Source of the DNA: Sulfolobus islandicus Y.N.15.51 | GTDB lineage: Archaea > Thermoproteota > Thermoprotei_A > Sulfolobales > Sulfolobaceae | Reading direction: 5' to 3' | NCBI RefSeq assembly: GCF_000022485.1 | Contig: NC_012623.1 | Span: forward strand, 1,948,501-2,012,500 | Length of the DNA: 64,000 nt | Part shown: in pieces, positions 26,280 through 45,383 of the stretch | Layout of the letters: the number at the start of each line of letters is the position of its first letter | Position numbering within the stretch: the first letter of the stretch is position 1 | Notes under the pieces: model-generated | Told to the model about the DNA's origin: nothing | The model's input: only the letters and a program-made list of their open reading frames with translations | Database searches by the model: none | Translations under genes and position numbers: made by a program

Positions 26280-26545
26280 CCGTTTGTCCCTACACTTTCA
26301 TTTCACTCATTTTATCTTCAATCATGATCGAGTGTAGGGACTTAGCCCTCAACCACTCACTTACTGTAGGTGGGTCATGGGACTCCTTTGAGCCCAACGG
26401 CACGGGGCTCACATCTCCAGCTCTCCTCGCTAAGTTGTACAGTGCAACTACATCCCTATGCCACTTTTCCTTCCCCTTCTCACAAACACCAACCCTTGGG
26501 GCATCGCCCCCATCGGGTTGGTAAACGATCTTAGTTCCATGAACT
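26280..26545 (-). ncRNA. probable omega-RNA region of IS607 copy 1
   Basis: The 3' end of tnpB and the right end. A helix ACCAACCC/GGGTTGGT (26488-26495, 26515-26522) encloses GGGGC/GCCCC, and the same fold, with paired base changes, survives in the 226-bp derivative that has lost the protein. TnpB guide RNAs come from this place in known systems. The guide would be read from flank beyond 26280 (minus strand). The 5' end of the RNA cannot be set. Confidence 0.5.
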
Positions 26546-27519
26546 GGGCAAACAGTGGAAGTATAAGATGGGTTAACTAAGACCACGGGGACACCAAACT
26601 CCCTAGCCTTCTCAATAATAGCATTCTTCATTGAGGAAAATGCAGATCTATAAATCCTCAACCTAAGCTGTTTATCCTTAATATCCTTAACCATATGCTC
26701 TGGAGCCCTCTTGGGCAAGTCCTCTAAAACTATGACACTCCTACTTTCAAAAGCCTCTTTAACGATCAGCTTAGCTAATTTCCTCCTAATGTCTACTTTC
26801 TTATCCCTCTCCCTCAGCATCTTTAACTTCCTCCTCACTTCCCTATCCTTAGTTGACTTACCAGTAGTTATTGCCTTCCTCCTATACTCATAGCCCAGAG
26901 TAATTTTCTTAGTGTTAGTCTCAAGCAATAAGGGTTTACTATTGATGAGCACCGAGACCGAATTCTCGTTAAGGTCGACGGGAATAAACGCTTTAGGCTC
27001 ATAAGGTTTAACATCTCTCTTAAAAATGACGTAGAACTCTACAACATTCCCCTTCATCAGCCTAAACCTGGCCTCACTCGCAATCAACCAACCCTTATTA
27101 TAATATCTCCAGAAGATCTTAGGGAAGGTTGGTGAAATGAAAACCCTACTCCTCTTTGTGGAAATTGAAATCCTATCAAGGTTGAACTTCCACAGATGAT
27201 CGTCGAGGTGAATAGTAACTCTCCTCACTGACGGTTTCTCAGTGTAACTTTTACCTCTCTTCTTCAACTTCTCAAAACTCTCTAATCTCTCGCTTGCATC
27301 CTCACAAGCGGTGTAAATATAATGGGAGGGTAAGTCCTTATGCTTCTCCCTCTCAGTCTTGTAAACTCCAGCTTTAATCCTGGTGAAGGAGGTAGTTTTG
27401 TTTGACAGTCCATAATTTATTGCCTCCTCTAGAACCTCTCTGTACTCCTTCTCGACCTCCTTAAGTGCTGAGTATGTAGAATAGTCAACCCTAACCCTTA
27501 ACTTCACTGTCCTCTCCAC
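26290..27519 (-). CDS. tnpB: TnpB RNA-guided nuclease, IS607 type (copy 1)
   Basis: 409 residues. Split RuvC site: Asp in IPVDLNENSVSVL (about 180), Glu in VIVLEDLPKR (about 262) and Asp in KWHRDVVALYNLARR (about 362), between which lie the zinc-region residues CPVHG and GVCEKG. All catalytic residues are present. TnpB proteins cut DNA guided by an RNA made from the 3' end of the element and promote its maintenance. The start overlaps the resolvase gene. The last 250 bases also contain conserved hairpins that are kept in the deletion derivative at 37.7 kb, which fits an overlapping guide RNA. Confidence 0.85.
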   Translation of the reverse strand: MERTVKLRVRVDYSTYSALKEVEKEYREVLEEAINYGLSNKTTSFTRIKAGVYKTEREKHKDLPSHYIYTACEDASERLESFEKLKKRGKSYTEKPSVRRVTIHLDDHLWKFNLDRISISTKRSRVFISPTFPKIFWRYYNKGWLIASEARFRLMKGNVVEFYVIFKRDVKPYEPKAFIPVDLNENSVSVLINSKPLLLETNTKKITLGYEYRRKAITTGKSTKDREVRRKLKMLRERDKKVDIRRKLAKLIVKEAFESRSVIVLEDLPKRAPEHMVKDIKDKQLRLRIYRSAFSSMKNAIIEKAREFGVPVVLVNPSYTSTVCPVHGTKIVYQPDGGDAPRVGVCEKGKEKWHRDVVALYNLARRAGDVSPVPLGSKESHDPPTVSEWLRAKSLHSIMIEDKMSEMKV

Positions 27520-28132
27520 TCAACTCACCTATTAACTTTTTTACACCTTGAACTAGGAGTGTTTTCTTGTGACTCCTCATTCCGTAAATTTTCCCTGCGA
27601 ATGATGTAACGACGGAAATTAAGTCCTCAACTAGCTCTTGTGCGTCATCTTTGGGCTCCTCACCAAAAACTACTTCAATCTTAACTCCCATGGTTGAGAA
27701 GAACTCTTCAATGTACTCAAATCCAAATCTTGTAAGTCTGTCTTTGTATGTTATTAATACGATGTCGACACTCCTCCCCTCAACAAGTTTGAATAACTTA
27801 AGTAATCCTTTTCTTTGTGTGTTTAACCCGCTAGCTATATCTTTCAGTACTTCAACTACCTTGTAACCTTTTGCCGTTGCGTAATTTGTTAGGTAGTTTA
27901 TTTGTCTTTCCAAGTCTTCTCTCTGGTCTGCTGACGAAACTCTTGCGTAAATTACAGCCCTCGTCTCTTCCCTCCTTTCTAAGTACTTCTTTATCTCGCT
28001 GTAAGGTATCCTATACTTCCCTCCTTCAGTCGTTACCACCTTTATTTTTCCTTCTCTAATCCACCGTAGGAGTGTTGAGTATGAGATGCTGAGTAGTTGG
28101 CAAGCCTCCTTAGGTCTCAGTAGTCTCTCCAC
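27491..28132 (-). CDS. tnpA: IS607-type serine recombinase (copy 1)
   Basis: 213 residues. An N-terminal MerR-like helix-turn-helix (RPKEACQLLSISYSTLLRWIREGKI) binds DNA and precedes the catalytic serine resolvase domain, an order typical of IS607. YARVSSADQREDLERQ holds the nucleophilic Ser, DRLTRFGFEYIE the conserved Arg residues. The protein recombines element ends with little target preference. It overlaps tnpB by 29 bases and is almost identical to copy 2 at 43.5 kb. It appears intact. Confidence 0.9.
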   Translation of the reverse strand: MERLLRPKEACQLLSISYSTLLRWIREGKIKVVTTEGGKYRIPYSEIKKYLERREETRAVIYARVSSADQREDLERQINYLTNYATAKGYKVVEVLKDIASGLNTQRKGLLKLFKLVEGRSVDIVLITYKDRLTRFGFEYIEEFFSTMGVKIEVVFGEEPKDDAQELVEDLISVVTSFAGKIYGMRSHKKTLLVQGVKKLIGELSGEDSEVKG

Positions 28133-28192
28133 AAAATTGGTTGATAATAAATAAATATAAAAAGATTTCTATTAACGTGAGAAAGAATTCAG

Positions 28193-37655: not shown

Positions 37656-37703
37656 TTAGGTTCTGTTGAAAATAGCAAGTATCACCCCTGATACTTAGTA
37701 TCA

Positions 37704-37929
37704 CCGTTTGTCCCTACACTTTCATTTCACTCATTTTATGTTCATTCATGATCGAGTGTAGGGACTTAGCCCGTGGGTCATGGGACTCCAACGGCACGGG
37801 ACTCACATCTCTGCAATCACTCCCACTCTTTTGGGCATAGCCCACATCGGTGTGAGAGATCATTATTTATCAACAAAAATTTGTTATAAACAGACAAAAA
37901 GATTTCTATTAACGTGAGAAAGGATTCAG
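37704..37929 (-). mobile_element. 226-bp deletion derivative (MITE) of the IS607 element
   Basis: Both ends are identical in type to the two full copies (GTGTAGGGACAAACGG at one end, CTTTCTCACGTTAATAG at the other), but all of tnpA and most of tnpB are gone. The kept inner part is the tnpB 3' region with its hairpins (TGGGC/GCCCA at 37832-37844 inside a longer helix), no longer coding. It could be moved in trans and may still make a guide RNA. Confidence 0.75.
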
Positions 37930-38135
37930 CCCATTTCATTCGTCCAGCGGTAGACCACGGGCTGAGCTTTCAGCCCATTACGCCTATCCCTCACCAAGAG
38001 TGTCTTTTACTCCCGGTTTTTCGAGACTCGGGGATATGCAAAGGCCCGCGGGGATCCTTATCTTCAGTATGTCCACTTTTGTGGGCTTCCTCGCACTTCA
38101 TCGATAGCACACTTCAAGCTATTAAACTAAGATTA
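37930..38135 (-). pseudogene. IS605-type OrfB 3'-end relic with hairpins
   Basis: On the minus strand SVLSMKCEEAHKSGH resembles the S-M-K-x-E-A end of archaeal OrfB/TnpB proteins, then a GC-rich stretch with a hairpin GGGCTGA/TCAGCCC (37958-37975). TTCAGCCCATT occurs at 37925 and again at 37971. It is probably an older element end into which the IS607 derivative jumped. Confidence 0.35.
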
Positions 38136-43432: not shown

Positions 43433-43530
43433 GGATAAGAGCTCAGCAAGAAAATCAACCGTAATAAGGGTTGAATCCTTTCTCACGTTAACAGAAATCT
43501 TTTTATATTTATTTATTATCAACCAATTTT

Positions 43531-44172
43531 GTGGAGAGACTACTGAGACCTAAGGAGGCTTGCCAACTACTCGGCATTTCATACTCAACACTCCTACGGT
43601 GGATTAGAGAAGGGAAAATAAGGGCAGTAACGACTGAAGGAGGGAAGTATAGGATACCTTACAGCGAGATTAAGAAGTACTTAGAAAGGAGGGAAGAGAC
43701 GAGGGCTGTAATTTATGCAAGGGTCTCCTCTACCGATCAAAAAGAGGACTTGGAAAGACAAATAAACTACCTAACAAATTACGCAACGGCAAAAGGTTAC
43801 AAGGTAGTTGAAGTACTGAAAGATATAGCTAGCGGGTTGAACACACAAAGAAAAGGATTGTTAAGGCTATTCAAACTTGTTGAGGGGAGGAGTGTCGACA
43901 TCGTATTAATAACATACAAAGACAGACTTACAAGATTTGGATTTGAGTACATTGAAGAGTTCTTCTCAACCATGGGAGTTAAGATTGAAGTAGTTTTCGG
44001 TGAGGAGCCCAAAGATGACGCACAAGAGCTAGTTGAGGACTTAATCTCAATCATTACCTCATTCGCAGGGAAAATTTACGGAATGAGGAGTCACAAGAAA
44101 ACACTCCTAGTTCAGGGTGTAAAAAAGTTAATAGGTGAGTTGAGTGGAGAGGACAGTGAAGTTAAGGGTTAG
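43531..44172 (+). CDS. tnpA: IS607-type serine recombinase (copy 2)
   Basis: 213 residues, nearly identical to copy 1. MerR-like HTH at the N-terminus, catalytic Ser in YARVSSTDQKEDLERQ and the conserved DRLTRFG. Differences from copy 1 are conservative (for example A to T beside the Ser motif, K to R in LLRLFK). It appears functional and overlaps tnpB by 29 bases. Confidence 0.9.
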   Translation: MERLLRPKEACQLLGISYSTLLRWIREGKIRAVTTEGGKYRIPYSEIKKYLERREETRAVIYARVSSTDQKEDLERQINYLTNYATAKGYKVVEVLKDIASGLNTQRKGLLRLFKLVEGRSVDIVLITYKDRLTRFGFEYIEEFFSTMGVKIEVVFGEEPKDDAQELVEDLISIITSFAGKIYGMRSHKKTLLVQGVKKLIGELSGEDSEVKG

Positions 44173-45373
44173 GGTTGACTATTCTACATACTCAGCACTT
44201 AAGGAGGTCGAGAAGGAGTACAGAGAGGTTCTAGAGGACGCAATAAATTATGGGCTGTCAAACAAAACTACCTCCTTCACCAGGATTAAAGCTGGAGTTT
44301 ACAAGACTGAGAGGGAGAAACATAAGGACTTACCCTCACACTACATCTACACCGCTTGTGAGGACGCAAGCGAGAGATTAGACAGTTTTGAGAAGTTGAA
44401 GAAGAGAGGTAAAAGTTACACTGAGAAACCGTCAGTGAGGAGAGTTACTATTCACCTCGACGATCATCTGTGGAAGTTCAACCTTGATAGGATTTCAATT
44501 TCCACAAAGAGGAGTAGGATTCTCATTTCACCAACCTTCCCTAAGATCTTCTGGAGATATTATAACAAGGGCTGGAGGATTGCGAGTGAGGCCAGGTTTA
44601 GGCTGATGAAGGGAAATGTTGTAGAGTTCTACGTCATTTTTAAGAGGGATGTTAAACCTTATGAACCTAAGGGTTTCATCCCAGTTGATCTAAATGAGAA
44701 TTCAGTCTCTGTATTAGTTGATGGAAAACCGATGCTTTTAGAGACTAACACTAAGAAAATTACTCTGGGCTATGAGTATAGGAGGAAGTTGACAATCACT
44801 GGTAAGTCAACTAAGGATAGGGAAGTGAGGAGGAAGTTAAAGAGGCTGAGGGAGAGGGATAAGAAAGTAGACATTAGGAGGAAATTAGCAAAGCTGATCG
44901 TCAAAGAGGCTTTTGAAAGTAGGAGTGTCATAGTTTTAGAGGACTTGCCTAGGAGAGCTCCGGAGCATATGATAAAGGACGTGAAGGATAAACAACTTAG
45001 GTTGAGGATTTATAGATCTGCATTTTCCTCAATGAAGAATGCTATTATTGAGAAGGCTAGGGAGTTTGGTGTCCCCGTGGTCTTAGTTAACCCATCTTAT
45101 ACTTCCACTGTTTGCCCAATTCATGGGACGAAGATCGTTTACCAACCCGATGGGGGCCATGCCCCAAGGGTTGGTGTTTGTGAGAAGGGGAAGGAAAAGT
45201 GGCATAGGGATGTAGTTGCACTGTACAACTTAGCGAGGAGAGCTGGAGATGTGAGCCCCGTGCCGTTGGGCTCGAAGGAGTCCCATGACCCACCTACAGT
45301 AAGTGGGTGGTTGAGGGCTAAGTCCCTACACTCGATCATGAATGATCATAAAATGATTGAAATGAAAGTGTAG
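44144..45373 (+). CDS. tnpB: TnpB RNA-guided nuclease, IS607 type (copy 2)
   Basis: 409 residues with intact RuvC Asp-Glu-Asp (PVDLNENSVSVL, VIVLEDLPRR, HRDVVALYNLARR) and the same zinc-region residues (CPIHG, GVCEKG) as copy 1. Both copies lack the usual second CxxC pair of TnpB zinc ribbons, so metal binding there may be reduced. The 3' end carries the conserved hairpin ACCAACCC/GGGTTGGT (45141-45175), with loop changes only, as expected for a guide RNA that overlaps the gene. Confidence 0.85.
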   Translation: MERTVKLRVRVDYSTYSALKEVEKEYREVLEDAINYGLSNKTTSFTRIKAGVYKTEREKHKDLPSHYIYTACEDASERLDSFEKLKKRGKSYTEKPSVRRVTIHLDDHLWKFNLDRISISTKRSRILISPTFPKIFWRYYNKGWRIASEARFRLMKGNVVEFYVIFKRDVKPYEPKGFIPVDLNENSVSVLVDGKPMLLETNTKKITLGYEYRRKLTITGKSTKDREVRRKLKRLRERDKKVDIRRKLAKLIVKEAFESRSVIVLEDLPRRAPEHMIKDVKDKQLRLRIYRSAFSSMKNAIIEKAREFGVPVVLVNPSYTSTVCPIHGTKIVYQPDGGHAPRVGVCEKGKEKWHRDVVALYNLARRAGDVSPVPLGSKESHDPPTVSGWLRAKSLHSIMNDHKMIEMKV

Positions 45374-45383
45374 GGACAAACGG
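45120..45383 (+). ncRNA. probable omega-RNA region of IS607 copy 2
   Basis: Same place and fold as in copy 1: outer helix 45141-45148 with 45168-45175, inner GGGGC/GCCCC. The guide would be the flank beginning at 45384 (CAGTAGG). The 5' end is not defined. Confidence 0.45.

Follow-up and report, generated by a model that had tools for sequence, protein, structure and literature searches.

The window analyzed here, a 64,000-nucleotide stretch of a near-complete Sulfolobaceae genome (Sulfolobus islandicus Y.N.15.51, G000:C1:1948501-2012500), holds a 226-bp element that is flanked by two full IS607 copies (Table 1). Comparison with the ends of the full copies identifies the element as a non-autonomous IS607 derivative. 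Its 5' start, CTGAATCC, directly follows GG, its 3' end is ..GGACAAACGG, both match the ends of resident IS607 copies, and the protein genes are missing. By BLAST and alignment, the first 34 bp correspond to the left end, and the last ~110 bp to the right end (the 3' part of tnpB), of ~14 full IS607 copies in the genome, most of which are 1907-1916 bp long. The element is inserted at GG without a longer target duplication, in the manner of IS607; most copies of the family have GG on the left and themselves terminate in GG. The two ends, CTGAATCC and GACAAACGG, do not form inverted repeats. Classification as a MITE sensu stricto, with terminal inverted repeats, is therefore rejected, and "miniature noninverted repeat element" fits better.

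The initial annotation described the element as encoding no protein. This is correct for the nuclease, but 31 codons of the tnpB frame remain open at the 3' end of the window copy. The same annotation limited the supply of TnpB to the two full copies in the window, whereas the genome has 13 TnpB genes that run almost end to end without interruption. The full copies of the window encode an IS607 transposase (NF033518) and an RNA-guided TnpB (NF040570, guided_TnpB), with Pfam Resolvase and Cas12f1-like TNB matches for the copy at 43471-45383; a sequence-based search for a solved structure of this TnpB gave no match. In the full copies tnpA begins ~60 bp from the left end, a position that we infer to be that of a leaderless archaeal mRNA. 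One full copy elsewhere in the genome (L022, G000:C1:1756600-1760200) is enlarged to 3135 bp; its tnpB matches only to residue 367, the sequence preceding its last ~110 bp is foreign, and the gene was apparently hit by an insertion towards its 3' end.

Table 1. Features of the element and of the two full IS607 copies in the window
Feature	Position	Strand	Basis
Full IS607 copy; tnpA 27491-28132, tnpB 26290-27519; candidate trans-acting source	26280..28192	-	
Predicted guide, ~16-20 nt, TGATACTAAGTATCAGGGGT, from flank	37684..37703	-	IS607 TnpB biology (PMC10711439, PMC11061315)
Whole non-autonomous element, SMN2-type MITE from IS607, 226 bp	37704..37929	-	ends match full copies
3'-terminal putative pseudoknot strand AACGG, incl. 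GG recombination core; predicted guide-scaffold end	37704..37708	-	scaffold/guide boundary placed after PMC10711439
H4 3' arm AGTGTAGGGAC	37710..37720	-	
H4 5' arm GTCCCTACACT	37755..37765	-	
H3 base AGTCCC...GGGCT, apical hairpin deleted in window copy	37768..37787	-	alignment
H2 region: 5' arm GAGTCC 37799-37804; loop CGTGCCGTT 37790-37798	37784..37804	-	alignment
H2 canonical 3' arm GGGCTC deleted; candidate substitute GGAGTC 37784-37789, one mismatch		-	re-pairing predicted by inspection
Putative pseudoknot strand CCGTT	37790..37794	-	complementary to AACGG at 37704-37708
H1 hairpin: outer CTCTCAC/GTGGGAG, inner TGGGC-TAT-GCCCA at 37832-37844	37820..37858	-	fold z -4.2; covariation in MITE-only H1
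Alternative TATA-like TGTTTATAACA	37882..37892	-	sequence inspection; putative function
IS607 left end, 34 bp, incl. BRE/TATA region, here CTTTTTGTC not CTTTTTATA	37896..37929	-	BLAST to full-copy left ends
Full IS607 copy; tnpA 43531-44172, tnpB 44144-45373; candidate trans-acting source	43471..45383	+	

The SMN2 family and its insertion sites

Six derivatives of 226-267 bp are present in the window genome, and a search of 31 genomes of the family found matches in 20 of them and in nine of 11 genera. The additional short derivatives that the initial annotation had proposed to look for came to 94 distinct elements from ~15 genomes, and in aggregate they show paired substitutions in excess. They belong to SMN2, the Sulfolobus miniature noninverted repeat transposable element of the virus SMV1 (HG322870) and the plasmid pMGB1 (NC_021914) (PMC3839810). 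The sister copy L003 matches SMV1 at 93.3% and pMGB1 at 89.7%, over 252/252 nt in each case; the copy in SMV1 (Sulfolobus monocaudavirus) is annotated MITE-SMN2; and the window copy aligns as a shortened relative of L003, with 226 bp versus ~250 bp for SMN2. SMN2 was thought to be mobilised by an IS200 transposase and was described without a link to IS607, TnpB or guide RNA (PMC3839810). Judged by the element ends, SMN2 is instead IS607-derived, not IS200.

A MITE of this family consists of the left end with an archaeal-type TATA box, the hairpin H1, and then the 3' end of tnpB with H2, H3 and H4. Among the aligned copies, the TATA-region columns CTTTTTATA at the left end are each conserved at ~90% or more; a variable spacer follows, and then a conserved ATGAT before H1. 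Between H1 and H2, only ~11-14 nt remain of a ~55-nt segment of tnpB coding sequence that contains the RuvC motif HRDVVALYN. In three derivatives of 318-330 bp from G018 (L144, L158 and L160), H1 follows the tnpB RDVV motif and immediately precedes H2; it has moved relative to the coding sequence yet still adjoins H2.

The left flank is GGG at 84-95% per position, and its G content resembles that of AGGAG and GAGGG, the TAMs known for IS607; the predicted guide flanks are distinct in 93 of the 94 copies. SMV1 (L181) and pMGB1 (L182) carry two SMN2 copies each, one of those on pMGB1 interrupting plrA. Related plasmids carry an uninterrupted plrA that agrees with the joined pMGB1 flanks save one G in a G-run, the inserted site being one G shorter than the empty sites. 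A search for an element-free relative of SMV1 found none.

Pairing in the RNA helices

What had first drawn attention to this element was H1, in which the hairpin TGGGC-TAT-GCCCA was said to be retained with a T-A pair in place of a G-C pair of the full copies and with a different outer helix. Sequence comparison bears this out. At the homologous place, all readable full copies in the genome have GGGGC-NAT-GCCCC, with the exception of L031 (GGGGC/GCCCT), and the outer helix is CTCTCAC/GTGGGAG in the window element versus ACCAACCC/GGGTTGGT in the full copies. The paired swap is thus real, but it is not a change of the window copy, as its use as evidence for selection on RNA had implied. The T-A pair and the altered outer helix are common to the main MITE lineage across the family and therefore represent a single ancient event. 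We reject a recent compensatory change in the window copy, and because the swap was inherited within the family, the argument from one copy is weak. Among 197 genomes of the order, the MITE-type H1 occurs only in short elements and was seen in no full-length IS; its sole match outside the family is also a MITE. In G052, a genome from a different family of the order, a MITE also keeps the fold by inspection, with paired changes in H3 and H4.

Although the single copy carries little weight, the family as a whole supports the broader claim that the RNA is under selection and is a guide RNA which TnpB could use in trans. Random decay of the hairpins, the pattern that would have spoken against it, is not what the other derivatives show. 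In 46 sequences, with every helix counted, 96.6% of cells are paired and two-sided cells number 32 versus 11.5 +/- 3.8 (0/500). MITE-only H1 has 7 two-sided changes versus 1.3 with shuffled partners (0/200), and its covariation score is 0.215 versus 0.169 +/- 0.008 (0/500), with slid controls at <=0.10. Moreover, in G018 lineages the outer helix of H1 is replaced by TACGGGG/CCCCGTA or CCTGCAGGG/CCCTGCAGG, and H3 by CCTTGTGGAC/GTCCACAAGG; the bases of the replaced helices are unrelated to the usual ones and are perfectly or nearly perfectly paired (L138, L154 and L156 lineages). At the sequence level, the covariation in H1 together with helices rebuilt from unrelated bases supports selection on pairing.

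For the right-end stems, conservation with covariation is found on aggregate measures and not per pair. Against a null simulated along a tree, similar to that of R-scape, not one pair covaries at E <0.5. The rate of pair-breaking changes is not clearly below that of shuffled partners, break rates on terminal versus internal branches differ in the expected direction but not significantly, and a per-copy permutation test puts only a few copies <0.05, with the majority failing it. The loop of H2 contains CCGTT, the complement of the AACGG that ends the element. This exact pair, CCGTT/AACGG, occurs in 58 of the 94 MITEs and in 27 of the 34 IS entries, the others being one-base variants or unmatched by the script; the complementarity behind this putative pseudoknot is nearly invariant.

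Could the fold be a passive relic? The 3' end of tnpB might be kept as a DNA end needed by TnpA and renewed by exchange; the RNA fold would be under selection in the full copies and, passed on from them, would lie idle in the MITE. Exchange of this kind is suggested by three G030 MITEs (L058, L077 and L126) whose 3' ends lie 0-1.4% from the sole G030 IS (L150) and at least 6% from others, which points to gene conversion or recombination between MITE and full IS; 3' segments likewise track resident IS copies in G013 and G000. Such exchange means that changes seen in H2-H4 could have originated in full copies, and it may also account for the open tnpB frame of 54 of the 70 readable MITEs. The lack of an individually significant covarying pair also suits a relic, as does the multiplication of copies in which H2 has no 3' arm. 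Clean evidence of RNA selection in the MITE itself comes only from H1 and the rebuilt helices, and it is these that a relic accommodates poorly: this version of H1 is absent from all full copies seen and yet covaries, H1 and H3 have been replaced by unrelated complementary sequence, and the two-part deletion spares H1 despite its distance from the end. We consider the relic unlikely.

Alternatively, the selected product could be a small peptide encoded by the residual C-terminal tnpB frame (~31-45 codons). "Small putative ORFs" have been noted for SMN2 (PMC3839810), and besides the retention of the frame in most readable MITEs, several indels are multiples of three. The frame is, however, broken in 16 of 70, among them lineages whose helices are well formed, a conserved ATG start was not seen for it, the helices are rebuilt regardless of coding, and exchange with full copies can explain an open frame; we regard a peptide as highly improbable. 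The same very low probability applies to hairpins acting at the DNA level as recombinase recognition sites, as in IS200/IS605 single-strand transposition. H4 is indeed a strong inverted repeat at the right end, and the IS605-related PATEs show end palindromes (PMC3119063), but the TnpA in question is a serine recombinase of the IS607 type, a matching hairpin is missing from the left end and H1-H3 are far from the end. Furthermore, the helices change their sequence yet keep their pairing, which is not how a DNA site recognised by sequence behaves.

SMN2 as a candidate guide RNA for resident TnpB

By its sequence, the 3' end of SMN2 can form the canonical omegaRNA core. In its predicted layout SMN2 resembles ISDra2 (PMC10097598) and the IS607 elements ISXfa1 and ISFba1 (PMC10711439, PMC11061315): a stem whose loop may form a pseudoknot with the 3' end, a branched stem, a terminal stem, the putative pseudoknot strand and a guide, as well as a G-rich TAM and an omegaRNA that overlaps the 3' end of tnpB in full copies. 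The ISDra2 omegaRNA has a pseudoknot at the place corresponding to CCGTT/AACGG. H1 lies in the 5' part of the omegaRNA, and the ISDra2 counterpart of this part is not needed for cleavage (PMC10097598); for ISXfa1 the pseudoknot is reported as required. The diagnostic omegaRNA parts are the pseudoknot between the H2 loop and the 3' end, H3 and H4, not H1. Unlike these systems, SMN2 is a carrier without tnpA and tnpB, its RNA lies directly behind the left-end promoter, and it has H1 as an extra 5' hairpin. Searches of Rfam (including RAGATH-18) gave no match at the gathering score and nothing relevant at E up to 5.

We propose, with a probability of roughly 0.7, that SMN2 is the IS607 left end and promoter joined to a TnpB omegaRNA, mobilised by TnpA, guiding resident TnpB in trans and thereby retained. 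The proposal builds on the anatomy of the element, the family, near-precise insertion after G-rich sites, the uninterrupted TnpB genes and a conserved and covarying RNA structure; from these we infer transcription, loading of TnpB in trans, cleavage and a benefit for retention. IS607 TnpA would move SMN2 in trans. A transcript would start near the left end and fold into H1-H4 and the loop/3'-end pseudoknot, running past the right end so that the first flank bases become the guide, by analogy with known systems (PMC10711439, PMC11061315, PMC10278001). TnpB of a resident full copy would load this RNA and cut molecules that have the guide-matching site without the element (a GGG-type TAM plus flank), and cleavage of such empty sites would keep the MITE or restore it after excision. 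SMN2 appears to comprise a promoter, a TnpB guide RNA and hardly anything else, and may borrow both transposase and nuclease from its full-length relatives.

More tentatively, SMN2 could be a selfish guide-RNA parasite that spreads across Sulfolobaceae, a virus and a plasmid while supplying only the omegaRNA to resident TnpB. Its scaffold would be renewed by exchange with resident IS and so stay matched to the local TnpB, and on viruses and plasmids it would direct host TnpB at element-free versions of its site; a guide borne by a viral MITE would then point at element-free versions of the virus. We think this extension rather doubtful.

If the proposed guide-RNA role is true, RNA-guided retention is open to parasitism by 250-bp elements and is not only a trait of nuclease-encoding transposons. 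It would explain why SMN2 MITEs keep a structured RNA, reassign SMN2 from IS200 to IS607/TnpB, and provide a natural trans-acting, minimised omegaRNA from hyperthermophiles; the retention model would be testable through MITE loss with and without TnpB. The SMN2 MITE by name, the omegaRNA and IS607 TnpB are already known. The PATEs of haloarchaea are likewise small and protein-less, derive from TnpB-bearing elements and are mobilised in trans, but they are related to the IS605 type and an omegaRNA is not described for them in PMC3119063. In the openly accessible literature searched, no protein-less IS607 element was found described as a cassette of promoter and omegaRNA. Guide RNAs on PATEs are reportedly treated by Meers et al. 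2023.

Three genomes (G018, G020 and G029) contain SMN2-like elements but no intact TnpB of this family. With MITEs present and such a TnpB absent in G029 and G020, a dependence of SMN2 on TnpB, if real, would not be strict or would be historical. The older SMN2 copies of G029 look more decayed.

The case rests on the family and not on the window copy, which is among its more reduced members and may be weak, impaired or inactive; its own activity is uncertain for this reason. Alignment with its relatives reveals losses of 9 nt (the H2 3' arm, a deletion common to the window copy, L002 and the G012 copies), of 27 nt (the H3 apex) and of a TA (two bases) of the TATA box, while H1, the H3 base, H4 and both pseudoknot strands are retained. 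Stem 1 of the omegaRNA (H2) is thus incomplete in this copy, the substitute arm has one mismatch, and the predicted re-pairing with GGAGTC is absent from the MFE fold. The RNA fold has z = -4.2, with 0/200 shuffles as stable. A search of the genus found no clean empty site for this copy; G012 matches its left flank to the GG core and then diverges. Finally, we note that the flank at 37930-38040, CATTCGTCCAGCGGTAGACCACGGGCTGAGC, recurs in several genomes of the genus (G012, G017) and resembles an IS200/IS605 sequence listed in PMC3839810; on these grounds of recurrence and likeness, the window MITE seems to be inserted next to an IS200/605 remnant.
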